64,000 nt of DNA from Adhaeribacter pallidiroseus. Lineage in GTDB: Bacteria > Bacteroidota > Bacteroidia > Cytophagales > Hymenobacteraceae. The notes below the pieces were generated by a model that was not told where the DNA came from, ran no database searches, and saw nothing but the letters and a program-made list of their open reading frames with translations. Below, in pieces: positions 48,021 to 60,780 of this stretch. The stretch is taken from NCBI RefSeq assembly GCF_003340495.1, contig NZ_QASA01000001.1, forward strand, positions 1,178,001 through 1,242,000, written 5' to 3'. The position numbers and the translations under genes are program-made. The first letter of the stretch is position 1. The number at the start of each line of letters is the position of its first letter.

Positions 48021-51000
48021 ATGCGTACATGTAGACTCATTTTTTACTTACTCACATGGAGTTTGGGCTTATTCCAGGCGTTAAATGTACAAGCCCAGGG
48101 CAGGCAGATTACCGGCACCGTTCTTTCGGCCAAAGACCGGCAAGCTATTGTTGGGGCTACTATTCTGGTTAAAAACACGACTACTGGTACCACCACCGAT
48201 GCAGAAGGAAAATTTAGTTTAAACGTACCAGAAAGTGCGACGCTGGTTGTTAGTTACATTGGTTATACTAACCGCGAAATTCCGGTAGGTAATCAAACCA
48301 CCATCAATGTTTCGCTGGAAGAAAATTCTGAAGCCTTGGAAGAGGTGGTAGTAACGGCTTTGGGTATAAGAAAAGAATCAAAAAAACTAGGTTATGCTAC
48401 TTCTACTGTAAACACCGAGCAATTAACTACCGCACGCACCACCAACGTAGGTAATAGCCTGGTAGGTAAAGTGCCTGGTTTGCAGGTACAAGCCCCGCCC
48501 AGTGGGCCGGGTGGTTCTTCTAAAATCCGGATTCGGGGACAAGCCTCTTTTGGCGCCAATAACTCGCCATTAATTATTGTAAACGGGGTGCCGATTAACA
48601 ACTCTACCGGCGGATCGGCCAACAGTGGCGGAACCGGATATACCGGTGAAGCCCGTACCGATACCGGAGATGGTCTGCAAAGCATTAATCCCGACGATAT
48701 AGAGTCCATGACCGTTTTAAAAGGAGCAGCGGCCTCGGCTCTTTATGGTTTTCGGGCTAGCAACGGGGTTATTATTATTACTACAAAATCCGGTAAAGGT
48801 CAAGCCGGTATGGGAGTAGAATTAAATTCGAATTTCCAGGCCGATCAGGCTTTAGATTATACCGATTTTCAGTACGAATTTGGCCAAGGCGAAAACGGCT
48901 TCCGGCCGCAGGTACTCGAAGGTGGTCCAAATGCGGCGCGGGGGCCTTCCACCGGTACTGGTACCTGGAGCTTTGGCGAACGTTTCGATGGTAAACCTAC
49001 TATTGCGGTAGATGGTCAATTACATCCGTATAGTCCTTACAAAGATCGGGTTAAAGATTTTTACCGTACTGGTACCACCTGGACTAACTCCGTGGCTTTA
49101 TCCGGCGGTAATGATAAAGGTAACTTCCGTTTGTCTTTTGCCAATACCAATGCCAACAGCATCATTCCTAATTCGGAATTCAACAAGAAAATTTTAAATT
49201 TCGGATTAAATTATAACCTCACCGATAAGCTTTCTACCCAATTTAACGCGAACTACTCCAACGAGTACAATAAAAATCCGCCGGTAGTGGCGCAACAAGA
49301 TTATAACATTAACCAAACAGTTTACACCTTGGCTAATAGCATTGATGTAGCCTGGCTAGAAGCGGCTTACCAAAACGCGGCCGGCAACGAAATTCACCCT
49401 TCCCGTTTTACCAACCGAACTAACCCGTATTGGTCCATTAATAAACGCTTTGAAGAAAACCGCCGCGACCGGATTTTTGGCAATGCTTCCATCCGTTACC
49501 AATTTACACCTTGGTTATACGCGCAAGGTAGGGTAGGGCAAGATTATTTTACCAACCCCTATAGGGCTAACCGACCCACCGGAACTGCTTTCCTGGTTTC
49601 TGCTCCTATTGGTTTTAATGGTAACTTTTATCAGCGGGAAAATACTTTCCGGGAGCGCAACCTTGATTTCCTAATTGGCGCTAACCATGAGTTTGGTAAG
49701 TTTGGTATCGACGCAACTTTCGGTGGTAACTCCCTAGATATAAAAACTACTACCATTGGAACTTCGGTAACTAACTTCTACGTGCGCGACTTGTATACCA
49801 TTGGTAACGGCCAGGTGAAAGACCCGCAAGCATCCAGCACTTGGAAACGGGTAAATTCTTTATTTGGTACTGTTGATTTTTCGTTCAACAACTACTTGTT
49901 TTTAAACCTGACCGGCCGTAATGATTGGTTCTCGCCTTTAAATCTGAAATCAAACGATATCTTTTACCCATCAGTCAGTACTAGTTTTGTTTTTAGTCAA
50001 GCCATTACATCGTTGCCAGCTTGGCTAAATTATGGTAAACTCCGGGTAGCTTACGCCGAGGTAGGCGGAGACACTGATCCTTATTCCAATGCCCTCTTCT
50101 ATAACATTAACGCTAATCCTTTAGCAGTAGGTAGTAATAATTATGCTTTAGGAAATATTTCCGGTTCCGTCAGTCCAAATCCAAATTTAAAACCATCTCG
50201 GGTGAAGGAAGCAGAAGCGGGAGTGGAATTAAAAACTCTGGATAACCGGATTAACTTAGACTTAAGTGTTTACCGGAAAACTACCGTGGATGAAATTTTG
50301 AACGTGGATATTTCGAACACCTCTGGCTATAATCAAACCAAAGTAAATGTGGGTAAACTTCGGAACCAAGGTATTGAAGCCTTATTAACTTTAGAGCCCG
50401 TACGCTCGGACGCTACTACTTGGACCAGTGCTTTTAATTTTACCATTAACAAAAGCGAAGTACTGGAACTAGCAAATAACCAAACCCGCTTCGACGTTGC
50501 CAATGCTCAAGATTTAGGAGCTTTTATTGGTTATGTGTCGCACGAAGTAGGTAAGCCTTTAGCCTCTTTACGCGGCTTCGATTACAAACGGGATGACCAA
50601 GGACGCATTTTAACGACCAACGGCCGCTTTGCGCAAGGTAACCTGGTAACTTACGGTAGCGCAATCCCTACGCATACCGGTGGCTGGTTAAACACCGTTA
50701 ACTTTAAAGGCTTCCGTTTATTTGCGCAAGTAGACTTTAAAGCGGGTCATAAGCTAATATCTAACTCTAATTTTAACTGGATGCGTCACGGCTTGCACAA
50801 AGCTTCCTTAATTGGCCGCGAAGGTGGCGTGGTAATGGAAGGCGCGGTAAATGCCGATGGTACTCCTAATGCTACTCCCGTACCTGCTCAAGAATTTTAT
50901 AATAACTACCGCAGCGTAAACGTAACCACTCCGTTTGTGTACGATGCGAGCTTCGTGCGTTGGAGAACCTTGTCTTTAGGATACGATTTTACCAAGTTTG

Positions 51001-51188
51001 TAAACAAATCTTTCGTGAAAGGTTTAGCGCTGAATGCTTTTATTAACAACGTGCTGATAATTAAAAAATACGTCGACAACCTGGATCCGGAAACTCAGTT
51101 TTCGGCATCTGACCTTAACACTGGTTTAGAAGCGCATGCCTTACCTACTACCCGCAGTTATGGTTTAAACATTAACATTAAGCTTTAA
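48021..51188 (+). CDS. SusC/RagA-family TonB-linked outer-membrane transporter
   Basis: This 1055-aa outer-membrane protein imports a glycan- or acid-derived nutrient using TonB energy, with the SusD lipoprotein as its lid. It has a signal peptide (ending ALNVQAQ) and a carboxypeptidase-D-like regulatory domain (about 30-105, GTVLSAKDRQAIVGATILV). The SusC plug with TonB-box region (LEEVVVTALGI) and the plug end AASALYGFRASNGVIIITTK follow, then the beta-barrel ending in NINIKL. Length is typical. It is followed 6 bp later by susD. Substrate is suggested only by the enzymes downstream. Confidence 0.95.
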   Translation: MRTCRLIFYLLTWSLGLFQALNVQAQGRQITGTVLSAKDRQAIVGATILVKNTTTGTTTDAEGKFSLNVPESATLVVSYIGYTNREIPVGNQTTINVSLEENSEALEEVVVTALGIRKESKKLGYATSTVNTEQLTTARTTNVGNSLVGKVPGLQVQAPPSGPGGSSKIRIRGQASFGANNSPLIIVNGVPINNSTGGSANSGGTGYTGEARTDTGDGLQSINPDDIESMTVLKGAAASALYGFRASNGVIIITTKSGKGQAGMGVELNSNFQADQALDYTDFQYEFGQGENGFRPQVLEGGPNAARGPSTGTGTWSFGERFDGKPTIAVDGQLHPYSPYKDRVKDFYRTGTTWTNSVALSGGNDKGNFRLSFANTNANSIIPNSEFNKKILNFGLNYNLTDKLSTQFNANYSNEYNKNPPVVAQQDYNINQTVYTLANSIDVAWLEAAYQNAAGNEIHPSRFTNRTNPYWSINKRFEENRRDRIFGNASIRYQFTPWLYAQGRVGQDYFTNPYRANRPTGTAFLVSAPIGFNGNFYQRENTFRERNLDFLIGANHEFGKFGIDATFGGNSLDIKTTTIGTSVTNFYVRDLYTIGNGQVKDPQASSTWKRVNSLFGTVDFSFNNYLFLNLTGRNDWFSPLNLKSNDIFYPSVSTSFVFSQAITSLPAWLNYGKLRVAYAEVGGDTDPYSNALFYNINANPLAVGSNNYALGNISGSVSPNPNLKPSRVKEAEAGVELKTLDNRINLDLSVYRKTTVDEILNVDISNTSGYNQTKVNVGKLRNQGIEALLTLEPVRSDATTWTSAFNFTINKSEVLELANNQTRFDVANAQDLGAFIGYVSHEVGKPLASLRGFDYKRDDQGRILTTNGRFAQGNLVTYGSAIPTHTGGWLNTVNFKGFRLFAQVDFKAGHKLISNSNFNWMRHGLHKASLIGREGGVVMEGAVNADGTPNATPVPAQEFYNNYRSVNVTTPFVYDASFVRWRTLSLGYDFTKFVNKSFVKGLALNAFINNVLIIKKYVDNLDPETQFSASDLNTGLEAHALPTTRSYGLNINIKL

Positions 51189-51194
51189 GCAATT

Positions 51195-52721
51195 ATGATT
51201 TACACGAAAAAATATATATCCCTGGCCTTTGCCGCTCTTTTATTAAGCGTGAGCAGCTGCGATAAGGATTTTGAATTAATTAACACCAACCCTAACGCAG
51301 CTACTGATCTTGATCCGGTTTATCTGTTAAACAATGCCCAGTTTGCTTCCGGTAACCAAGCCATGCATTTTTACGAAGGCCAGATTGTACAACAGGTAAA
51401 CACTCCTTTTACGGGGGTAGTAGAGGCCGGTAACCACAACGTGCTCAACGATGCCAACACCCGGAGTTTGTGGAACGGCTTATACGAAGGTCCGGTGCGC
51501 AACACGGTAGCTATTATTGAAAAAACCAAGGCTGATCCGAACCAAAGTAATATTTACAACATGGCCCGCATCCTAAAGGCCTACAACTTTATTGTTTTAG
51601 TAGATAGCTACGGCGATGTGCCTTACTTTGAAGCCGGTAAAGGATTTGTGGAAAGTACTTACCTGCCGAAATATGACGATCAGAAAGCCATTTACGATGA
51701 TATTCTGAAGGAATTACAAGAAGCTACGGCTGCCTTAGACCCCGCTAAACCAACCGTAATTGGGGGCGATATCTTCTATAATGGCAACATTGAAAAATGG
51801 AGGAAACTGGGTAATTCTTTGTTGTTGCGGGCGGCTATGCGTTTCACGGAAGTGGATCCAACTAAAGCCGACCAGTGGGTGGATAAAGCCGTAGCTGGTC
51901 CGTTAATGGTGTCTAACGACGATAACGCTTTTGTCCGCTTTAATTCTCCGGCTTATGTGCATCCTACTACCTCCGGCTTAACGGCTACCGAAAAGGCCAA
52001 CTTTTTTGCCGGCGAACCTTTCGTAAATTACCTGAAAACCTACAACGATCCCAGAGCCCCTTATATAGTTGTCCGTTACTCGCAACGCGGCACCGATTCC
52101 GGGGGTGAAATAAATACCAACCTGGCTGATCAGTTTGGCTTACCTTATGGCTATTCCGATGTAACCTTACCTACCGCTCCCGGCTACCGCGGATCGCTGG
52201 ACCTTTACTCGCAATTTCGCCGCACTACCGTATTAAATCAAAATTCGCCGGAGTTTTTAGTTACCTACGCGCAAACCCAACTTTTACTGGCCGAAGCAGT
52301 GCAAAGAGGGTTTATCACCGGCGATGCCAAAACCTATTACGAAACCGGTATAAAAGCGCACATGGACCAACTAAAAGGCTATGATGCTACCATTAACATT
52401 CCGGAAGAAGTAAAAAATGCTTACGTGCAGCAACCCGGTATTTTGTACGATCCGGCTACTGCTCTGGAGCAAATTAATACGCAATACTGGGTGGCCTCTT
52501 TCCGGAGCTGGTCCGAAGCCTGGTCTAACTTCCGCCGTACCGAATTGCCAAGATTGCAGCCTATTAATTACCCCGGCGAAGATGCCTCGGTAAAAGGAGG
52601 CTTTATCCGCCGCCTGGTTTATCCGAACCGGGAAGTATCGGTAAACCAAACCAACGTGAACGATGCGGTTAGCCGGATGGGAGCCAATGTTTTAGGTACC
52701 CGTTTGTTCTGGGATAAATAA
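51195..52721 (+). CDS. SusD/RagB-family lipoprotein (SusD_2-like)
   Basis: The 508-aa surface lipoprotein binds nutrient above the SusC barrel. The signal ends in a lipobox with Cys22 (LLLSVSSC), then DKDFELINTNPN. Tetratricopeptide-like helices follow (MARILKAYNFIVLVDSYGDVPYF, QTQLLLAEAVQRGFI). The pattern fits the SusD-like 2 group, which pairs with short-TPR transporters. It overlaps functionally with the gene in front: 6-bp spacing indicates one transcript. Confidence 0.95.
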   Translation: MIYTKKYISLAFAALLLSVSSCDKDFELINTNPNAATDLDPVYLLNNAQFASGNQAMHFYEGQIVQQVNTPFTGVVEAGNHNVLNDANTRSLWNGLYEGPVRNTVAIIEKTKADPNQSNIYNMARILKAYNFIVLVDSYGDVPYFEAGKGFVESTYLPKYDDQKAIYDDILKELQEATAALDPAKPTVIGGDIFYNGNIEKWRKLGNSLLLRAAMRFTEVDPTKADQWVDKAVAGPLMVSNDDNAFVRFNSPAYVHPTTSGLTATEKANFFAGEPFVNYLKTYNDPRAPYIVVRYSQRGTDSGGEINTNLADQFGLPYGYSDVTLPTAPGYRGSLDLYSQFRRTTVLNQNSPEFLVTYAQTQLLLAEAVQRGFITGDAKTYYETGIKAHMDQLKGYDATINIPEEVKNAYVQQPGILYDPATALEQINTQYWVASFRSWSEAWSNFRRTELPRLQPINYPGEDASVKGGFIRRLVYPNREVSVNQTNVNDAVSRMGANVLGTRLFWDK

Positions 52722-52729
52722 AAATTTAA

Positions 52730-52767
52730 AAAAAACGCCCATTATTATTAAGTAGCGGGCGTTTTTT
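52730..52767 (+). terminator. Hairpin between susD and the catabolic genes (terminator or attenuator)
   Basis: An 11-bp stem (AAAAAACGCCC / GGGCGTTTTTT) with a 16-nt loop and a T-run lies 9 bp past susD. It could cap the susCD transcript or lower expression of the downstream enzymes. Confidence 0.75.
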
Positions 52768-52896
52768 AAATTTTTAGCCTCTTTGTATTTTGTTTTAAGG
52801 TAGCTATACGGCTAAAGATCATATTATCTACAAAATTAAACTAATACCTTACTGCTCTTCAGCAGCCCTTATTTCCGCGATTTGTTTCTCTGTCAA

Positions 52897-53862
52897 ATGA
52901 AAAAAGTATTTACCTTACTACTCTTATCTTCCTTTTTTATTCCTTTTTCCAACATACAAGCGCAGCAAATATCCAAAGAAGAGTTAGTTTTTCTGACCCC
53001 GGAGTGGAAAGGGGATCGTTTTCCGGATGGGCGGCCAAAAGTTCCGGATGATATTCTGAAACGCATGAAAGCGGTAAGTATGGAAGAAGCCTGGGCGACG
53101 ATGGGAGGTGCCCAATTCAATTACCAATTAGCGGAAGATTGGCCCGTTAGAATCAACCCGGACAGTGTACTGGTGGGCCGGGCATTTACCACCACCTTTA
53201 TGCCTTATCGCCCGGATATGTGGAAAGTTATCGACGAACGCGGTAAAAAAGAAGGCCGCCGTAACCAAAACGTGTGGGGGGTGGAGCAATTGCAAAAAGG
53301 CGATGTATATGTGGCTGATCAATTTGGCTTGCACAAAAATGGCCCCACCATCGGCGACCGCGTAGCCGCCGATATTTACCGAAGATCTGGTAATGGCATT
53401 GTGTACGACGGAGCCATCCGGGATATTGAAGGTTTAAAAGAGATGGGCCGGTTTACCTCCTATGTAACGAGTTACTCTCCATCTTATCATAACCCGCGCA
53501 ACGATTTAAATACCATGATCATGGGCATTAACAAACCCGTTCGTATTCGTCAGGTAACGGTTATGCCGGGCGATGTGGTTTTGGGCAAAGAAGGAGTCGT
53601 TATCTTTATTCCGCCGCATTTGGCCGAAAGAGTAGTGAAAGCATCCGAAAAAACCCGCCTGGAAGATATGTTTGCCCATATTCGCACCGCCGAAGGTAAA
53701 TATACGGCCGGCCAAATGGATGCGAGTTGGCCGGCTGCTATTCAGAAAGATTACCTGGATTGGTTAAAAGCCAGCGTGAAAGATAAAAAATTAAAATTAC
53801 CGGTAGCCAAAGCGCAAGTCGAGGAAATAATAGCGGCCAGTAGTGTCAATAATGTCAATTAA
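52897..53862 (+). CDS. Secreted RraA/HMG-aldolase-like protein 1
   Basis: The 321-aa protein (ATG at 52897) has a Sec signal peptide (MKKVFTLLLLSSFFIPF, ending IQAQ). The mature part is a RraA-superfamily domain with a conserved KGDRFPDGRPKVPDDIL N-terminus, KGDVYVADQFG and the active-site DGAIRD motif (Arg175, Asp176). In bacterial 4-hydroxy-4-methyl-2-oxoglutarate aldolases this Arg-Asp pair binds pyruvate and a divalent metal. This copy also keeps an Asp in TIGDRVA, which the two later paralogs lack. Export rules out an RNase E inhibitor role. I infer an aldolase acting in the periplasm. Confidence 0.85.
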   Translation: MKKVFTLLLLSSFFIPFSNIQAQQISKEELVFLTPEWKGDRFPDGRPKVPDDILKRMKAVSMEEAWATMGGAQFNYQLAEDWPVRINPDSVLVGRAFTTTFMPYRPDMWKVIDERGKKEGRRNQNVWGVEQLQKGDVYVADQFGLHKNGPTIGDRVAADIYRRSGNGIVYDGAIRDIEGLKEMGRFTSYVTSYSPSYHNPRNDLNTMIMGINKPVRIRQVTVMPGDVVLGKEGVVIFIPPHLAERVVKASEKTRLEDMFAHIRTAEGKYTAGQMDASWPAAIQKDYLDWLKASVKDKKLKLPVAKAQVEEIIAASSVNNVN

Positions 53863-53900
53863 ACTTTAACCAAAACACCTAGCAAATAAATTAAACAAAT

Positions 53901-55193
53901 ATGTCATATAAACAAAATCGCCGTTCCTTTATAGGGAAGCTTTCATTAGCGGGCGCTGCGAGTCTTTTGGGTGCTCCGGCCTTGGCTTCGGCCGGTACCG
54001 GTTTAATTGGAGCTAAAGAAAGAACGACCCACGCTTCGGCTCCGGCTGATCTGAAAATTACCGATGTAACCTGTGGTTTTATCAAAGGGGGCCATGATTT
54101 AATTGTAAAGGTTTCGACTAACCAAGGCATTGTGGGTTGGGGACAAGGGGTAGATGCCGTAGATGGAACCTACTATATGGTAAAACAAATGGGCAACCGC
54201 TTAAAAGGCCAAAACCCCTTAAATCCTAATCGTATCCAGGAAGATTTGCGGAAAGGTGCTTTTTTTGGGGGCGCCCAATCGGGGGTTTATGTAGCCGTAA
54301 TGGGAGCTATTGAAACCGCTCTTTGGGATGTTACGGGCAAAGCGTTAGGCGTACCGGTGTACCAATTACTAGGCGGTAAATTTCGGGATAAAGTGCGGGT
54401 TTATTGCGATACCGCCTTATATACCGCTCGTAACCCAACGCCCGATGATTACGCCAAATCGGCGAAAGGTGCCGTTGACAAAGGTTATACGGCCGTTAAG
54501 TTTGATATTGATGAAGGCAACGACCCGAACAAATATGACCGCTACAACTGGACCGCCAACCCGGCCGAGTTAGACCGCATGTATAATTCTATTGCCGCGG
54601 TTCGGAAGGCAGTAGGACCAAAAATTGATATTTGCGTGGACATGCACGGCCGTTATGATGCCACAACCGGCCATCGAGTGGCTAAACTGATGGAGCCTTT
54701 AAACCTGATGTTTTTAGAAGAGCCCATACCGGCCGATAACATGGATGTTTATAAAGAAATTACTAAAAGTACATCTACCCCTATTTGTGCCGGCGAAAAC
54801 ATGTATTTAGCTTATGGCTTCACCCGGGTTTTAGCCGATGGCGGCGTGGATATTATCATGCCGGATTTACAAAAAACGGGCGGTTTAGGCGAAGGCCAAC
54901 GCATTGCTAACCTAGCCAACTTGTATTATGTGCCTTTCTCTCCCCACATGGTAGCCTCCTTCATCGGGGCAATGGCAACTGCCCACGTTTGTGCCTCCGT
55001 GCCAAACTTCCATATTCTGGAGTGGCAAACTTACATGGATACGGAGCAGATTTACAAGGACGTAGTAAAATACGACAAACCATTCGTAGAAAAAGGTTTT
55101 ATTACCGTTTCAGATAAACCAGGTATTGGCGTAGATATCAACGAAGAAGGCATGAAGAAATACCATCCGAAAGATATTCCTTTCTTTGTGTAA
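53901..55193 (+). CDS. Tat-exported enolase-superfamily enzyme (mandelate racemase/acid-sugar dehydratase type) 1
   Basis: The 430-aa protein begins with a twin-arginine signal (NRRSFIGKLSLAGAASLLG), so it is folded in the cytoplasm and exported. The barrel has K200 in VKFDID, metal ligands D247 (VDMHGR), E273/E274 (LEEP) and E299 (AGEN). The catalytic Asp322 (MPDLQ) and His349 (SPHM) form the dyad of mandelate-racemase-group dehydratases. Such enzymes remove water from aldonic or uronic acids to give 2-keto-3-deoxy acids. It begins 39 bp after the RraA-like gene. Substrate is unknown. Confidence 0.9.
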   Translation: MSYKQNRRSFIGKLSLAGAASLLGAPALASAGTGLIGAKERTTHASAPADLKITDVTCGFIKGGHDLIVKVSTNQGIVGWGQGVDAVDGTYYMVKQMGNRLKGQNPLNPNRIQEDLRKGAFFGGAQSGVYVAVMGAIETALWDVTGKALGVPVYQLLGGKFRDKVRVYCDTALYTARNPTPDDYAKSAKGAVDKGYTAVKFDIDEGNDPNKYDRYNWTANPAELDRMYNSIAAVRKAVGPKIDICVDMHGRYDATTGHRVAKLMEPLNLMFLEEPIPADNMDVYKEITKSTSTPICAGENMYLAYGFTRVLADGGVDIIMPDLQKTGGLGEGQRIANLANLYYVPFSPHMVASFIGAMATAHVCASVPNFHILEWQTYMDTEQIYKDVVKYDKPFVEKGFITVSDKPGIGVDINEEGMKKYHPKDIPFFV

Positions 55194-55371
55194 AGCCTTA
55201 TCAGCTTAAACCCTAAACTTTAGAATTTTTTAAATTTTGAATACACCTACCAGATTAGTTTACCCAACACTTTGCCTGAATAGGCTACTTTTAAAAAATT
55301 TCATGCTAATAACCGATAACCAATAACAATTAACTTCTTACTTCTAATACTCCTAAATAACCTTAAACTTT

Positions 55372-56871
55372 ATGAAAAGCATTTTACAGAAGATTATTGC
55401 CCAAAACAAACAACAGGAGAAAGAAACGGCCGAAGCCATGCAGGCTGAAATAAATAATCCCCAAACCAGTGACAGCCGCCGTTCATTTTTAAAAAAATCA
55501 GCTTTAGGCGGTATTTCGTTAGGGGCTTTAATGGGAATGTCTTTTGAAGATACCATTGCCCAAACTACCTCCAAAGTAAGCCGGGCTTCGAAACCCTCCG
55601 AATTAAAAATTACGGATATGCGCTACGCCTTAACGAGTGTGTTGGGCGGTACCGCTATCATCCGGATTGATACCAACCAGGGAATTTACGGTTTAGGTGA
55701 AGTTCGGGATGGGGCCGATCCGCGTTATGCCTTAATGCTGAAAAGCCGCATATTAGGTATGAACCCCTGCAACGTAGAAATGATATTTAAAGCCATCAAG
55801 CAATTTGGGGGGCAAAGCCGCCAGGCGGGTGGCGTTTGCGGCGTGGAAATGGCTTTGTGGGATTTGTGCGGTAAAGCGTATAACGTACCGGCCTGGCAAC
55901 TATTAGGAGGACGTTACCGCGACCAGGTACGCTTGTATGCCGATACGCCGGAAGCGGGTTCGCCGGAAGAACAAGCGAAATTAATTAAATTCCGGACCCA
56001 GGATCAAGGGTATACTTGGCTGAAGATGGACGTTTCGATTGGCGAATTAAAAGGGAAACCCGGCACCGTGGTAAACTCTAAGTTCTGGGAAAATGCCCAG
56101 GGCAACTTGGCGCAGTGGGGCGATCAAAGCAATTACATGTCTTATGGCAATACCTTGCACCCATTCACCCAAATCCAAATAACCGATAAAGGCTTTGAAG
56201 AACTGGCTAAAATTGCCGAAAATGTGCGGAGCATGGTGGGCTACGATATTCCCCTGTCTACCGACCATTACGGCCACTTCGATCATAACAACGGTATCCG
56301 GTTAGGGAAAGCGCTGGAAAAGTACCGGCTGGCCTGGTTAGAAGATATTATTTCGTGGGAATACACCGATCAGTGGAAAACCATCTCGGATGCGATTGAA
56401 ACCCCCACCACTACCGGCGAAGATATCTTCTTACTGAAATACTTTAAACCACTCATTGATAAAAAAGCGGTTGATATTATTCACCCGGACTTAGCAACCT
56501 CCGGCGGTCTGCTGGAAACAAAGCGGATTGGCGATTACGCCGAAGAAAATGGCATTGCCATGGCCATGCACCAGGCTGGTACGCCGGTTTCTTTTATGGC
56601 CAACGTGCATTGCGCCGCCGCTACGCAAAACTTTTTAGCGCTGGAACACCACTCCGTAGATTTACCTTGGTGGGAAAGTTTAGTGAAAACTACCGATGGC
56701 CGGAAATTAATTACAAAAGGCTACGCGACTGTACCGCTTACGGCACCGGGCTTAGGCATTGAATTAAACGAAGAAGTAGTAAAACAGCACTTGCACCAAA
56801 GAGATAAAACATTTTTTGCGCCAACCAAAGAGTGGGACGAAAGACGTTCTCACGACCGGATTTTCAGTTAA
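55372..56871 (+). CDS. Tat-exported enolase-superfamily enzyme 2
   Basis: The 499-aa protein has an unusually long n-region (about 36 residues) and then a clear twin-arginine motif (SRRSFLKKSALGG). The barrel residues are complete: K218 (LKMDV), D298 (STDHYG), E324 (LED, not LEEP), E350 (TGED), D373 (HPDL) and H400 (AMHQAG). It belongs to the mandelate-racemase/galactarate-dehydratase side of the superfamily but is clearly different from the enzyme before it, which suggests a second substrate or a second step. A hairpin follows the stop. Confidence 0.88.
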   Translation: MKSILQKIIAQNKQQEKETAEAMQAEINNPQTSDSRRSFLKKSALGGISLGALMGMSFEDTIAQTTSKVSRASKPSELKITDMRYALTSVLGGTAIIRIDTNQGIYGLGEVRDGADPRYALMLKSRILGMNPCNVEMIFKAIKQFGGQSRQAGGVCGVEMALWDLCGKAYNVPAWQLLGGRYRDQVRLYADTPEAGSPEEQAKLIKFRTQDQGYTWLKMDVSIGELKGKPGTVVNSKFWENAQGNLAQWGDQSNYMSYGNTLHPFTQIQITDKGFEELAKIAENVRSMVGYDIPLSTDHYGHFDHNNGIRLGKALEKYRLAWLEDIISWEYTDQWKTISDAIETPTTTGEDIFLLKYFKPLIDKKAVDIIHPDLATSGGLLETKRIGDYAEENGIAMAMHQAGTPVSFMANVHCAAATQNFLALEHHSVDLPWWESLVKTTDGRKLITKGYATVPLTAPGLGIELNEEVVKQHLHQRDKTFFAPTKEWDERRSHDRIFS

Positions 56872-56878
56872 TAAGCTT

Positions 56879-56908
56879 AAAGCGGAAGGTAGCATTGCCT
56901 TCCGCTTT
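56879..56908 (+). terminator. Hairpin after the second enolase-superfamily gene
   Basis: An 11-bp stem (AAAGCGGAAGG / CCTTCCGCTTT) with an 8-nt loop, followed by TATTAATTTTT. The T-run is imperfect, so read-through to the transporter is likely. Confidence 0.7.
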
Positions 56909-56992
56909 ATTAATTTTTAAAAATTTTACTCGTGGGCGAACTACCCAACAGGCGTTCATCCTGATCTTCCATTAAGATTAACAGTTTATACC

Positions 56993-58123
56993 TTGAAACA
57001 GAACAGCATTTATAAAGTAGCCTTGGGAATAGCGGCACTGGCCCTGGTAGTGGCTCTTGTAATGATCTTTAGCGGCAAAAACGCGCAAGCCGGGCCTGTA
57101 TTTATTTTAGTATTTGTAGCCTTAGGCATTGGTTTCCGCGGCTTTGCCATTACCAAAGGCTTTGCTTACACCATGATGATTTTTGCCGCCGTAACAACGG
57201 CGCTTAATTTTCCGCAGTATTTTGTAGAAGTTAACGGCTTTAAGTTTGCCACCCTCATTACCCCGCTTATTCAAATCATTATGTTTGGCATGGGCACCGA
57301 AATGGGATTGAAAGATTTTGCCGGCGTTTTAAAAATGCCCAAGGCCGTATTAATTGGCTTAGTGGGCCATTTTACGGTAATGCCTCTCCTGGGATTTTCG
57401 TTGGCCAAAGCTTTTGGTTTTCCGCCGGAAATTGCGGCGGGCGTTGTTTTAATCGGCAGCATGCCCTGCGGTTTGGCTTCCAACGTAATGTCGTACCTGG
57501 CCAATGCCAATCTCGCTTTATCGGTAACGCTTACCGCGGTAGCTACTTTACTGGCCCCTTTCTTAACCCCCCTGTGGATGAAAATTTTAGGCGGTCAGTT
57601 TGTGGAGGTAGATGCTTTAGCCATGATGTGGGACATTGTAAAAATGGTAATTATTCCGATTGGGGGCGGTTTGTTGTTTAATAAGTTTTTTAAAGGAAAA
57701 GCCCATTGGTTAGATAAAGCCATGCCTTTAGTTTCCATGATCGGGATTGCTTTTATCATTACCATTATTACCGCCGCCGGCCGCGATAATCTGATTGTTA
57801 TTGGCCCGGCTTTAATTGTGTGTGCGCTGATTCATAACACCGGCGGCTATATGTTCGGTTACTGGATTGGCCGTTTGTTTGGCTTAAAAGAACGCGACGC
57901 CCGCACCATTGCCATAGAAGTAGGTATGCAAAACGGAGGCTTGGCCTCGGGTTTGGCGAAAGAAATGGGCAAAGCCGCGACCATTGGCCTGGCGCCGGCT
58001 GTTTTCGGACCTTTAATGAATATTACCGGTTCCATCCTGGCCTCTTACTGGCACCGCAAACCACCCGTAGATAAGGACGAAGCCCTCAATCAAGAATTTA
58101 GCGAGTTGGCCGTAAAATCGTAA
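56993..58123 (+). CDS. Bile acid:sodium symporter (BASS) family transporter
   Basis: The 376-aa inner-membrane protein has about ten helices. Conserved BASS features are visible: FGMGTEMGLKDF, then GSMPCGLASNVMSYLANANLALSVT with the sodium-site asparagines, and EVGMQNGGLASGLAKE near the C-terminus. BASS relatives move bile acids, pantoate or pyruvate with sodium. The start looks like TTG at 56993, directly giving MKQNSIYKVALGIAAL. In this locus it would carry the small product made by the exported enzymes; that is inference from position. Confidence 0.92.
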   Translation: MKQNSIYKVALGIAALALVVALVMIFSGKNAQAGPVFILVFVALGIGFRGFAITKGFAYTMMIFAAVTTALNFPQYFVEVNGFKFATLITPLIQIIMFGMGTEMGLKDFAGVLKMPKAVLIGLVGHFTVMPLLGFSLAKAFGFPPEIAAGVVLIGSMPCGLASNVMSYLANANLALSVTLTAVATLLAPFLTPLWMKILGGQFVEVDALAMMWDIVKMVIIPIGGGLLFNKFFKGKAHWLDKAMPLVSMIGIAFIITIITAAGRDNLIVIGPALIVCALIHNTGGYMFGYWIGRLFGLKERDARTIAIEVGMQNGGLASGLAKEMGKAATIGLAPAVFGPLMNITGSILASYWHRKPPVDKDEALNQEFSELAVKS

Positions 58124-58190
58124 CGAGTAGATCGCGCTCATTTAATCGGCAAAAATTTAAAATTTAAAAAACGAAGTAATAAAAACTTAC

Positions 58191-58622
58191 ATGAAAAAAA
58201 TAGGGGTACTGTGTCTATTTTGGCTGGGGTTTATCGGGAACGGTTTTGCTCAAACTGCCGAAGAGAAGCAAGTAACAGCAGCAGTCGAAACGTTTAAAAA
58301 TGCTTTAATAACCGCTGATAAAAATTTGCTGGAGTCCATAACAGCCGATGAGCTCAGTTACGGACACTCCAGCGGCAAAGTAGAAGACAAAGCAGCTTTT
58401 GTGAATGGTGTAATCAACGACCCCATTAAGTTTAATTTAATTGATTTACAAGATCAAACCATTCGGATGGCGGGTAATACGGCCCTGGTGCGGCATGCTT
58501 TTAATGCCAAAATCACGAATAATGGCACCCCCGGAGAAATTAAAATTAGGAATTTATTGGTGTGGCAAAAACAAAAAGGGCAATGGAAATTATTAGCCCG
58601 GCAAGCTTTCAGAGTACCGTAA
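58191..58622 (+). CDS. Secreted NTF2-like (DUF4440-type) protein
   Basis: The 143-aa product has a Sec signal (MKKIGVLCLFWLGFIGNGF, then AQ) and an NTF2-like cone fold (VETFKNALITADKNLLESI, LSYGHSSG, LVWQKQKGQWKLLARQAF). DUF4440 proteins are often small binding or isomerase-like enzymes. It lies between the transporter and the second RraA-like gene, suggesting a role in the pathway, for example isomerising or binding a keto acid, which is inferred. Confidence 0.82.
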   Translation: MKKIGVLCLFWLGFIGNGFAQTAEEKQVTAAVETFKNALITADKNLLESITADELSYGHSSGKVEDKAAFVNGVINDPIKFNLIDLQDQTIRMAGNTALVRHAFNAKITNNGTPGEIKIRNLLVWQKQKGQWKLLARQAFRVP

Positions 58623-58677
58623 ATTTTAAAAAATACTTAAAAAGTTTTTGCATCAGATAATTTAAAATACAAAAAAA

Positions 58678-59610
58678 ATGAATAAAAAGATATTTCTTAT
58701 TGGCGCGCTCGTTTTAAGCGGATTTTTAACAAATGCCCAAATGCGGGTAGGTTCTACTCCCGAAACCGTAAAAGCCTTAACTTCTAACTGGAAGGGTGAA
58801 CGGTTTCCGGATGGCCGCCCTAAGGTGCCGGATATTGTATTAGACCGGTTACAAAATGCCACTTTAGAGCAAATCTGGGGCTATTTAGGCAACAAAGGAT
58901 ATCGCAACCAGGTCGAAAAAAACTGGATTATCTTAAAACCCGGCGAAACCATGACCGGCCGCGTAGTTACCGCGCAGTTTATGCCTACCCGCCCGGACCT
59001 GGATAGCTTGGTAAGAGCGCAAGGCAAAGCCGAAGGCCGTTCGCAAAAAGGCGGTATTAACATTTGGCCCATCGATGTTTTAACCAAAGGCGATATTTAC
59101 GTGGCCGATGGTTTTGGCAAAGTAAAAGACGGAACTTTAATTGGCTCTAGTTTAGGCAACGCTATTTATGGTAAAACCGGCAAAGGTGTTATTTTCTACG
59201 GTTCCGTACGCGACATGCAGGAATTAAAAGACACCAAAGGTTTTAACGCCTGGGTAAAAGGCCACGATCCGTCGTATATCAAAGACATGACGCCCTCTTC
59301 CATTAATGCCCCCATCCGGATTGGCGAAGTAACCGTTTTCCCCGGCGATGTGGTGTTTGCGAACGAGTACGGCGTGGTATTTATTCCGGCGCACTTAGTA
59401 GAAGGCTTGGTATCGGCTTCCGAAATGACGGCGTTGCGCGACGAATTCGAGCGGGTACTTTTAACCCAAGGTAAATATCCGTCCGGCGAAATTCACGGCG
59501 ACTGGTCCGATAAAATTAAAGATGAATTCAGAACCTGGGTGGGTAAATATCCGAAGAAGTTAGCTATTACTAAAAAAGACATTGACGCTTACTTAGCCAA
59601 AGGGCATTAA
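58678..59610 (+). CDS. Secreted RraA/HMG-aldolase-like protein 2
   Basis: The 310-aa paralog has a Sec signal (MNKKIFLIGALVLSGFLT, then NAQ). It shares WKGERFPDGRPKVPD and WPIDVLTKGDIYVADGFG with paralog 3. The Arg-Asp pair is kept as R178-D179 (YGSVRD). The Asp of the paralog 1 TIGD segment is Ser here (LIGSSLG). This may alter the acid-binding end of the pocket. It follows the NTF2-like gene by about 55 bp. Confidence 0.85.
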   Translation: MNKKIFLIGALVLSGFLTNAQMRVGSTPETVKALTSNWKGERFPDGRPKVPDIVLDRLQNATLEQIWGYLGNKGYRNQVEKNWIILKPGETMTGRVVTAQFMPTRPDLDSLVRAQGKAEGRSQKGGINIWPIDVLTKGDIYVADGFGKVKDGTLIGSSLGNAIYGKTGKGVIFYGSVRDMQELKDTKGFNAWVKGHDPSYIKDMTPSSINAPIRIGEVTVFPGDVVFANEYGVVFIPAHLVEGLVSASEMTALRDEFERVLLTQGKYPSGEIHGDWSDKIKDEFRTWVGKYPKKLAITKKDIDAYLAKGH

Positions 59611-59706
59611 TAATATTCCGGTTAAGTAAACGGGATTAGCTTGTCTTAAATTTAAAAAAAATAATTTCTGGTAGATAAATTCAATTTTTAATCCATAAAA
59701 GTTGCG

Positions 59707-59754
59707 CTTGGTTAGTTAGCAAAATCTTTTGTTAGATTGCGTTAACTAACCAAG
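59707..59754. repeat. Perfect 12-bp inverted repeat between RraA-like genes
   Basis: CTTGGTTAGTTA (59707-59718) and TAACTAACCAAG (59743-59754) are exact complements with a 24-nt spacer. There is no T-run after it, so a terminator is unlikely; an operator or RNA-level site 40 bp before the third RraA-like gene is possible. Confidence 0.6.
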
Positions 59755-59792
59755 TTGTTTATACAAATCTTTCATTTAATGATAAATCTATA

Positions 59793-60725
59793 ATGAATTT
59801 TAAAATTTCTTTTTTATTGCTTTCTGTTGTGGGTATTATGGACTCACAATTATTATACGCCCAAACGATCTCGAAAGAAGAACTTACTTTTTTAACTTCC
59901 GAGTGGAAAGGAGAGCGCTTTCCGGATGGACGCCCGAAAGTGGCGGAAAGCTTACTCGAAAGAGCCAAGAAAGTGGGCATTGCCGATGCCTGGACCGTGT
60001 TAAAAAACGAGGGTTATACCAACCAGTACGAAGGCAACTGGAAAACCGTAAACGACGAAACCCCGGTAGTAGGCCGGGCCGTTACGGCTCAATTTATGCC
60101 CAGCCGGCCCGATGTAGAAAAAAGTATCGTGGACCGGGGCCAGAAAGTGCAAGGCCGCAAAGGGGCTTCTAACTCCTGGCCCATCGATGTGTTAACGAAA
60201 GGCGATGTGTACGTAGCCGATGGTTTTGGTAAAATTAACGGCGGCACTTTAATGGGCGCTACACTGGCTAATTCTATTTTTAATAAGTCGGGTAACGGCG
60301 TAGTGTTTAACGCGGCCGTCCGCGATCTGGAAGAAATTCAAACCATAAAAGGCTTTAACGCATTTGTGCGCGATTGGCACCCGTCGTTTTTAGAAGGCAG
60401 CGTACTTATGGGTTTAAATACCCCCATCCGGATGGGCAACGTCATGGTGATGCCGGGTGATTTAGTAATTGCTAAAAGAGAAGGCGTGCTTTTTATTCCG
60501 GCGCATTTAGCGGAACAAGTAATTAGTACCTGTGAGTTTGTAACCCGCAAAGACAAATTTGGCTTTGAAATGATTAAAGCGGGCAAATACTCAGCCGGTC
60601 AGATTGATAGCCAGTGGAACGATCAGTTAAAAAATGATTTTCTAAAGTGGCTGGGTACGCACCCCGAAATGGGCACCATGACCAAAGCGGAAGTGGACAA
60701 AGTAATGAGCAAAAGAACCTGGTAG
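59793..60725 (+). CDS. Secreted RraA/HMG-aldolase-like protein 3
   Basis: The 310-aa paralog starts with a Sec signal (MNFKISFLLLSVVGIMD, ending LLYAQ). The catalytic Arg-Asp pair is R177-D178 (NAAVRD), and WKGERFPDGRPKVAES and VADGFGKINGG match paralog 2. As in paralog 2, the TIGD acidic residue is replaced (LMGATLA). It is the last gene before the terminator of the locus. Three divergent copies suggest different aldehyde acceptors or a mixed oligomer. Confidence 0.85.
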   Translation: MNFKISFLLLSVVGIMDSQLLYAQTISKEELTFLTSEWKGERFPDGRPKVAESLLERAKKVGIADAWTVLKNEGYTNQYEGNWKTVNDETPVVGRAVTAQFMPSRPDVEKSIVDRGQKVQGRKGASNSWPIDVLTKGDVYVADGFGKINGGTLMGATLANSIFNKSGNGVVFNAAVRDLEEIQTIKGFNAFVRDWHPSFLEGSVLMGLNTPIRMGNVMVMPGDLVIAKREGVLFIPAHLAEQVISTCEFVTRKDKFGFEMIKAGKYSAGQIDSQWNDQLKNDFLKWLGTHPEMGTMTKAEVDKVMSKRTW

Positions 60726-60746
60726 CCTTTTTTTTAAATTTTTTGT

Positions 60747-60780
60747 AAAAGCTGGAGTAAATTCCAGCTTTTTTCTTTTT
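60747..60780 (+). terminator. Intrinsic terminator of the catabolic locus
   Basis: A 10-bp stem (AAAAGCTGGA / TCCAGCTTTT) with a 6-nt loop is followed by a T-run. It lies about 20 bp past the last RraA-like gene. Confidence 0.88.

Follow-up and report, generated by a model that had tools for sequence, protein, structure and literature searches.

Gene content and order of the locus

The window analyzed here is the whole stretch of 64,000 nucleotides from Adhaeribacter pallidiroseus that spans G000:C1:1178001-1242000 of a 6.43 Mb genome with 3 contigs. Positions 48021-60725 of the window carry a locus that, in our assessment, may well encode a sugar-acid pathway operating outside of the cytoplasm. 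All genes of the locus are on the plus strand and code, in order, for SusC, SusD, an RraA-like protein (RraA1), two enolase-superfamily proteins (enolase 1 and enolase 2), a BASS-family symporter, a DUF4440 protein, and two further RraA-like proteins (RraA2 and RraA3) (Table 1). A sequence-only reading of this DNA had listed these genes at 48021..60780, and both the list and the location proved correct.

Table 1. Genes and hairpins of the locus, with positions in the window and profile scores.
Feature	Position	Strand	Profile score
SusC/RagA TonB-dependent outer-membrane transporter	48021..51188	+	TIGR04056 641.3 bits, cut-off 368.25
SusD-like substrate-binding protein	51195..52721	+	PF12771 288.1 bits
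RraA1, Sec-type signal, D-X20-R-D form	52897..53862	+	PF03737 59.4 bits
Enolase 1, predicted Tat-type GalD-like dehydratase	53901..55193	+	PF13378 205 bits; NF010624 263.3 bits
Enolase 2, Tat-type enolase-superfamily protein	55372..56871	+	PF13378 143.8 bits
Terminator-like hairpin with 14-bp stem and T-rich tail, separating enolase 2 from BASS	56878..56909	+	
BASS-family symporter, TTG start of open reading frame	56993..58123	+	PF01758 140.5 bits
DUF4440 (SnoaL/NTF2-like) protein, Sec-type signal	58191..58622	+	PF14534 60.5 bits
RraA2, Sec-type signal, S-X20-R-D-X2-E	58678..59610	+	PF03737 69.1 bits
RraA3, Sec-type signal, A-X20-R-D-X2-E	59793..60725	+	PF03737 70.1 bits
Hairpin, 11-bp stem, T-rich tail, likely locus end	60747..60772	+	

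The SusC and SusD genes are adjacent and each scores above its cut-off, as is characteristic of a SusCD uptake locus. The open reading frame (ORF) of RraA1 begins with TTG at 52882, and the ATG at 52897 is a better fit to a signal peptide. The BASS symporter is recognized by PF01758 and scores below the cut-offs of both curated families to which it was compared (TIGR00841, 231.3 versus 326.3 bits; NF047939, 236.9 versus 400 bits). The nearest curated family is PanS (NF047939). This is in keeping with a putative cargo that is a small hydroxy or 2-oxo acid, but points to no particular compound.

The hairpins that follow enolase 2 and RraA3 suggest that the locus may comprise two transcription units. 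These are the two longest of the 18 hairpin/T-tail sites that were found in the region, where 19.2 were expected from shuffled sequence, and the former has the longest stem of all. Counts of promoters and terminators showed no excess over shuffled sequence and were rejected as evidence.

Export signals and active-site residues

Signal peptides of the window proteins were read by eye in the translations, and a crude custom detector was used for relatives. Sec-type signal sequences were recognized by eye in RraA1 (MKKVFTLLLLSSFFIPFSNIQAQ), RraA2 (MNKKIFLIGALVLSGFLTNA), RraA3 (MNFKISFLLLSVVGIMDSQLLYA), and the DUF4440 protein (MKKIGVLCLFWLGFIGNGFA), each followed by Q. Twin-arginine motifs are present in enolase 1 (NRRSFIGK) and enolase 2 (SRRSFLKK), with a hydrophobic stretch after each, and the genome encodes one copy of TatC. 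Based on the presence of these features, both enolases are predicted to be substrates of twin-arginine translocation (Tat). The detector assigned the window proteins to the same Sec and Tat types, and the earlier claim that all six enzyme-like proteins carry export signals was thus borne out. Enolase 2 and several of its relatives have an N-terminal stretch of ~35 residues (MKSILQ.II...NNP.T; window 55372-55480) preceding the twin arginines, which forms a helix of moderate confidence in the structural model.

A scan of the genome_contigs collection, for which the queries were this genome's four RraA proteins of the exported type, revealed at least 403 confirmed relatives. The best 80 loci of these were retained and they consequently lean to close relatives; all 80 belong to the Bacteroidota, as judged by the taxonomy of their titles. 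Among unrelated ORFs of >150 amino acids in these loci, the detector classified 330/703 as Sec-like, a class too loose to serve alone as a test, and 28/703 as Tat-like. RraA proteins were Sec-like in 111/120 cases by this loose class. A stricter signal rule was passed by 101/117 RraA proteins with the core motif (the 3/120 that lack the core motif were left out), and 12 of the 16 that failed the rule were inspected by eye and resemble signal peptides. Twin arginines are invariant in 23 aligned enolases (A4) and were identified within the first 80 residues of 37/37 enolases in the loci, 35/37 of which were Tat-like by the detector. Tat-like N-termini were likewise assigned to RidA (27/27), to DgaE-like pyridoxal phosphate (PLP) enzymes (24/27), and to UxuA (13/14), whereas SMP-30 proteins in the 80 loci were Sec- or lipoprotein-like (24/24). 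To our knowledge, PLP enzymes bearing Tat signals are unusual; nonetheless, use of this route by PLP enzymes and enolases would make sense given that Tat carries folded proteins. We consider it highly likely that the enzymes of the locus are located outside of the cytoplasm.

Both enolases score above the cut-offs of PF02746 and PF13378, which places them in the mandelate racemase group of the enolase superfamily. The three carboxylate metal ligands (D, E, and E) are conserved in 8/8 rows of the enolase 1 group and 32/32 rows of the enolase 2 group. All 8 rows of the enolase 1 group, the window's row included, also share D247, H249, E273, E299, and H349, a pattern that we take to be that of D-galactonate dehydratase, with residue roles as in DgoD. 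Against the corresponding profile (NF010624, cut-off 311 bits), enolase 1 and enolase 2 score 263.3 and 169.7 bits, respectively. The enolase 2 group likewise retains its metal ligands together with the base His in 32/32 rows (two rows from the same genome included). A His at position D+2, as in the usual DxH motif, is present in 0/32 rows, with F, Y, Q, M, or I at this position and His at D+1 in 32/32, which suggests that the chemistry or stereochemistry may differ. The AlphaFold2 (AF2) model of enolase 2 (predicted local distance difference test, pLDDT, 82.0) has 2qq6 as its best PDB match, and its other matches are also enolase-superfamily structures. A role of these proteins as acid-sugar dehydratases appears well supported by family, active-site residues, conserved Tat signals, and gene neighborhoods, with active-site support that would be full for enolase 1 and partial for enolase 2.

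The RraA fold also occurs in regulators of RNase E and in oxaloacetate decarboxylases, and enolase 2 is without the DxH acid. Both facts would be accommodated if the proteins of the locus served in binding or scavenging, or if these enolase and RraA paralogs acted on other acids (e.g., in oxaloacetate decarboxylation). However, the D, E, and E ligands and the base His are retained in 32/32 enolase 2 rows, and the partner classes of RraA described below share a single product type. We thus view this explanation as very improbable. Regulation of RNase E would be implausible outside of the cytoplasm, and it was rejected for the RraA proteins on the basis of their signal peptides and their placement in catabolic loci.

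Additional enolases of this type were observed nearby and in a related species. Just past the end of the window (L015:3752-5299, equivalent to G000:C1:1243751-1245298) is a third enolase with a Tat-type signal, which shares 62% identity with enolase 2, and Adhaeribacter aquaticus encodes nine tandem enolase 2 paralogs around three RraA genes (L021:195-18977).

RraA1-3 score 59.4-70.1 bits against PF03737 (cut-off 24.5). The fold was checked on RraA3 alone, the AF2 model of which (pLDDT 82.9) matched 3k4i, 5x15, 3noj (4-hydroxy-4-methyl-2-oxoglutarate/4-carboxy-4-hydroxy-2-oxoadipate, or HMG/CHA, aldolase), and 2c5q (yeast Yer010Cp) in Foldseek (E 1.8e-13). Among aligned RraA proteins, Arg177 is kept in 120/120 rows and Asp178 in 119/120. 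We take the motif of RraA-type class II pyruvate aldolases to be D-X20-R-D or G-X20-R-D-X2-E/D. Relative to the Arg-Asp pair, RraA1 has its carboxylate as D at -21, and RraA2 and RraA3, with S or A at -21, have E at +4. Scores against the HMG/CHA aldolase family TIGR02798 (45.9-50.7 bits) are well under the cut-off of 304.5. Among the matches listed, the named relatives closest to RraA3 are from Adhaeribacter rhizoryzae and A. aquaticus (85% identity).

Genomic neighborhoods of exported RraA proteins

Neighboring genes were clustered across the 80 loci, with a family assigned from one representative of each cluster. By this approach, BASS symporters were identified in 34 loci, enolases in 27, RidA in 27, SMP-30 lactonases in 25, and a deacetylase/amidohydrolase (NF006689; representative 452.9 bits, cut-off 371) in 21. 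A DgaE-like PLP lyase was identified in 20 loci (representative L072_07, TIGR01437 186.4 bits, under the cut-off of 385.3), and the catalytic motif SG[GHAS]K of DgaE is kept in 26/26 sequences. Other neighbors comprise DUF4440 proteins (15 loci), a soluble sugar dehydrogenase with cytochrome c (14), a pyrroloquinoline quinone (PQQ) dehydrogenase (12), UxuA (7), and a galactonate-type MFS transporter (7; representative 258.8 bits, under the cut-off of 395). Group sizes vary between clustering and phmmer searches (SMP-30, 25/20 loci; DgaE-like, 20/21; deacetylase, 21/22). In total, 52 of the best 80 loci have an enolase, DgaE-like, or UxuA gene.

Association of these enzymes with RraA was evaluated in whole genomes behind 40 hand-picked loci of the 80, mostly isolates rather than metagenome-assembled genomes. 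With L071 and L087 left out, the set comprised 38 genomes, which encode 97 exported-type RraA copies. The best 150 enolase rows were used, and six second pieces of already counted UxuA genes were dropped. An exported-type RraA was present no more than 10 kb away from 54 of the best 150 listed enolases (1.15 expected), 15/39 DgaE-like genes (0.29 expected), and 7/86 UxuA genes (0.63 expected), where the expectations assume random, independent placement and ignore the relatedness of genomes. At least 75/97 RraA copies have one or more of the three enzyme classes inside this distance. The products of UxuA, DgaE, and galactonate-type enolases are presumably all 2-keto-3-deoxy sugar acids. The strongest argument for the function of RraA is that three unrelated enzyme classes that share a product type all recur near it, which suggests that RraA acts on the 2-keto-3-deoxy product. 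The sequence-only reading had proposed such a role, and the recurrent closeness to these classes supports it; we regard it as likely.

A FastTree reconstruction of RraA from 121 rows, in which genes up to 8 kb away were counted as partners, shows how these partners are distributed. The RraA1 clade (5 rows) has only enolases as partners. The RraA2 clade (32 rows) is associated with enolases in 23 rows, UxuA in 5, none in 4, and DgaE in 0, and seems to be tied to a dehydratase-type route. The RraA3 clade (82 rows) is associated with enolases (28), DgaE (20), UxuA (5), or none (29), and partner exchange within this clade is consistent with a shared intermediate. Partner labels require 10 changes on the tree versus a mean of 27.4 when shuffled.

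Individual loci illustrate these arrangements. L030, from Pontibacter pamirensis, has the gene set of the window locus in the order SusC-SusD-RraA1-enolase 1-enolase 2-RraA2-RraA3-BASS-DUF4440, such that the BASS-DUF4440 pair is shifted behind the RraA pair. In L042, the order is SusC-SusD-UxuA-RraA2-PQQ dehydrogenase-RraA3-BASS. L046 has GSDH-SMP30-deacetylase-RidA-DgaE-RraA3, and L087 has SusC-SusD-RidA-DgaE-deacetylase-RraA3-(small ORF)-GSDH-(CBM9-type protein)-BASS. In loci of the L046 type, an N-acetylhexosamine might be oxidized to a lactone, opened, deacetylated, and deaminated to a 2-keto-3-deoxy acid that is then processed by RraA.

More generally, Tat-type DgaE-like PLP enzymes and RidA, together with deacetylases, were observed near RraA in L046, L052, L058, L072, L075, L087, L095, and L096, where a periplasmic amino-sugar-acid pathway is possible. 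A different arrangement was observed in Arenibacter (L048, L051, L053, L055, L057, and L059), where a RidA-size gene, RraA3, DUF4440, BASS, and a 738-741-amino acid protein (DUF7133 in L048) occur with no keto-deoxy-acid-forming enzyme within the fetched stretch.

The prevalence of the exported RraA family, as opposed to that of a whole pathway, was 8/118 genomes at the level of the phylum (E <= 1e-10), with strong matches in G000 (the window's genome), G108, and G049, the last of which is split in two pieces, one with an internal stop. At the level of the order it was 33/194 genomes (E <= 1e-60), the window's own genome counted.

The neighborhoods also bear on what RraA might do with a 2-keto-3-deoxy acid. 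The enolase superfamily includes glucarate, galactarate, and talarate dehydratases, and the exported RraA proteins could instead be dehydratase/decarboxylases that convert 2-keto-3-deoxy-hexarates derived from aldaric acids to alpha-ketoglutaric semialdehyde, to be imported or oxidized. FlDet, an RraA-family enzyme of a Flavobacterium, is reported to act in this way on 2-keto-3-deoxy-D-glucarate (PMC8563752), such that RraA membership by itself does not select aldol cleavage. However, UxuA, DgaE-like, and galactonate-type enolase neighbors point to aldonic or amino-aldonic rather than aldaric substrates, and no semialdehyde dehydrogenase was found among the neighbor families assigned (several recurrent neighbors had no family assigned). 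We consider a FlDet-like role for these RraA proteins to be rather improbable.

A second, dgo-like locus of the same genome at ~5.015-5.039 Mb (L016:4698-18896 and L017:6725-9537) contains a galactonate-type MFS transporter (239.7 bits, under the galactonate-type cut-off of 395), a 2-keto-3-deoxy-6-phosphogluconate (KDPG) aldolase (TIGR01182 175.6 bits, cut-off 156.05), DgoK (PF05035 197.3 bits), three Tat-type enolases, SusCD, a PQQ dehydrogenase, and a DUF4440 gene. The enolase at L016:10801-12054 is the sole one scanned in this genome that exceeds the NF010624 cut-off (441.9 versus 311 bits), and ~48 residues with a Tat motif precede its matched part. No signal was evident at the N-termini of DgoK and KDPG aldolase, and it thus appears that the galactonate dehydratase of this locus is exported and that the kinase and aldolase are not. 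The sequence-only reading had stated that no cytosolic kinase or dehydrogenase is present, which holds for the ORFs listed within the window locus but not for the genome, given the DgoK, KDPG aldolase, and PQQ dehydrogenase at the second locus. With a kinase and a KDPG aldolase encoded elsewhere in the genome, the missing kinase carries little weight.

The layout of the dgo-like locus (Tat-type galactonate dehydratase, MFS transporter, DgoK, and KDPG aldolase, with no RraA) is that of an alternative in which dehydration is periplasmic, BASS or MFS transporters take up the 2-keto-3-deoxy acid intact, and a kinase and KDPG-type aldolase complete its breakdown in the cytoplasm. RraA would then be auxiliary, with epimerization or hemiketal ring opening as examples of its role. 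Homologs of KDPG aldolase were identified in 39/39 genomes (23/39 above cut-off), such that a search for genomes without KDPG aldolase fails to discriminate cleavage from import and phosphorylation, and similar MFS transporters occur in 7 of the best 80 RraA loci. In contrast, the Arg-Asp pair of RraA is conserved and its fold is like that of HMG aldolase, a BASS gene is present in 34 of the best 80 RraA loci (one of which also has an MFS transporter), and the ORFs listed for the window locus include no kinase. We consider import of the intact acid to be unlikely, albeit credible.

The genome encodes five RraA proteins, none of which is located in the dgo-like locus. One without an evident signal is encoded immediately upstream of a mannonate dehydratase of the UxuA type (L019:2168-4106), and pairing of RraA with an enzyme that makes 2-keto-3-deoxygluconate (KDG) thus seems to occur within the cell as well. 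Another (L018:5595-6521) is the fourth exported-type RraA of this genome.

Proposed pathway and comparison with known systems

We propose that SusCD delivers either a sugar acid or an oligomer that contains one to the periplasm, where Tat-exported, metal-dependent enolase-superfamily enzymes would dehydrate it to a 2-keto-3-deoxy sugar acid. This keto acid would be the substrate of the Sec-exported RraA-like enzymes, whose most likely reaction is a metal-assisted retro-aldol cleavage that yields an aldehyde and pyruvate (or another 2-oxo acid related to it), and the BASS symporter could take in the resulting small 2-oxo acid. The sequences themselves show which genes are present, N-termini that resemble signals, the residues of the active sites, and a recurrent link to three classes of enzymes that form 2-keto-3-deoxy acids; from these we infer every reaction, the substrate, and the cargo of BASS. 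That dehydration occurs outside of the cytoplasm is very probable, and that both dehydration and RraA processing occur there, whatever the reaction of RraA, is a reading that we favor with some reservation. Aldol cleavage as the reaction of RraA has about an even chance. The periplasmic pathway put forward in the sequence-only reading is upheld in its export and dehydratase parts, by family, active-site residues, conserved Tat signals, and neighborhoods; its pyruvate-releasing cleavage and BASS import stay conjectural.

Several observations weigh against an extracytoplasmic pathway of this kind. With regard to the enzymes, both enolases score below every curated NCBIfam cut-off listed, enolase 2 is without the D+2 His, RraA2 and RraA3 have S or A where RraA1 has D, and 29/120 RraA rows have neither D at -21 nor E/D at +4. 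With regard to genomic context, no enolase, DgaE-like, or UxuA gene was found in 28 of the best 80 fetched loci or within 10 kb of 22/97 RraA copies (an upper figure), and no evident sugar-acid partner gene of the fourth exported RraA was found in the 13 kb fetched. The window locus is also without a dehydrogenase or lactonase gene that could account for the acid. The presence of KDPG-aldolase homologs in all 39 genomes examined, the reaction of FlDet, and the simple null model of the association counts add to these points.

Viewed more broadly, many Bacteroidota might possess a complete and ATP-free extracytoplasmic route to pyruvate that starts from aldoses, sugar acids, and amino sugars; we advance this wider system tentatively, as somewhat less than an even prospect. 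Early steps would involve a sugar dehydrogenase (of the PQQ type, or a GSDH coupled with cytochrome c), a lactonase, and a deacetylase. Later steps would involve a Tat-exported dehydratase, or a Tat-exported PLP ammonia-lyase with exported RidA, an exported RraA aldolase, and pyruvate import by BASS. The window locus would be the enolase-type branch of this exported Entner-Doudoroff-like scheme.

Cleavage of sugar carbon-carbon bonds is taught as a cytosolic process. If the pathway exists as proposed, Bacteroidota could gain respiratory electrons and pyruvate from awkward sugars such as amino-sugar acids and aldonates with no dedicated inner-membrane sugar transporter and no ATP spent on a kinase. 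It would also provide candidate functions for a family whose sole annotation is RraA-like, for Tat-type enolases, and exported PLP and RidA proteins. In the titles and abstract openings of the open-licence PMC papers listed, a scope outside of which subscription papers fall, no description was found of a keto-deoxy-acid pathway in the periplasm or of RraA proteins or enolase-type dehydratases that are exported.

Among known systems, the HMG/CHA aldolase 3noj and 2c5q, the latter of which we take to have aldolase activity, resemble the RraA proteins of the window in fold and in the Arg-Asp pair. They differ in that identity is ~18%, scores are far short of the LigK level, and the window RraA proteins have export signals and sugar-acid neighborhoods. 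FlDet, likened here by description rather than by sequence, shares with them the RraA family, an origin in Bacteroidota, and a 2-keto-3-deoxy acid as substrate, but it is ~27 kDa, catalyzes another reaction, and is described in the accessible part of its source with no mention of an export signal (PMC8563752).

The ong oxidative chitin pathway of Pseudoalteromonas prydzensis is reported to comprise deacetylation of N-acetylglucosaminate and PLP-dependent deamination to KDG, with RidA required for growth (PMC9537276). OngB and OngC are predicted to be cytoplasmic, OngC is a fold-type III PLP enzyme, and KdgK phosphorylates KDG (PMC9537276). The pathway parallels the deacetylase-DgaE-RidA loci of Bacteroidota. 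There, however, the PLP enzyme is DgaE/SelA-like, Tat-type (24/27), and near RraA, and does not conform to a cytoplasmic enzyme of fold-type III. The window locus itself contains none of these genes.

The dgo (De Ley-Doudoroff) and non-phosphorylative Entner-Doudoroff pathways are cytosolic in textbook cases. Like the pathway proposed here, they employ an enolase-type acid-sugar dehydratase followed by an aldolase that acts on a 2-keto-3-deoxy acid, and some relatives of the window locus encode a galactonate-type transporter. In contrast, the window enzymes bear signals of the Tat or Sec type, and the candidate for the aldolase step is RraA-like. We take the locus to represent a recurrent compartmental variant of known sugar-acid catabolism, with its predicted chemistry probably shifted outside of the cytoplasm.

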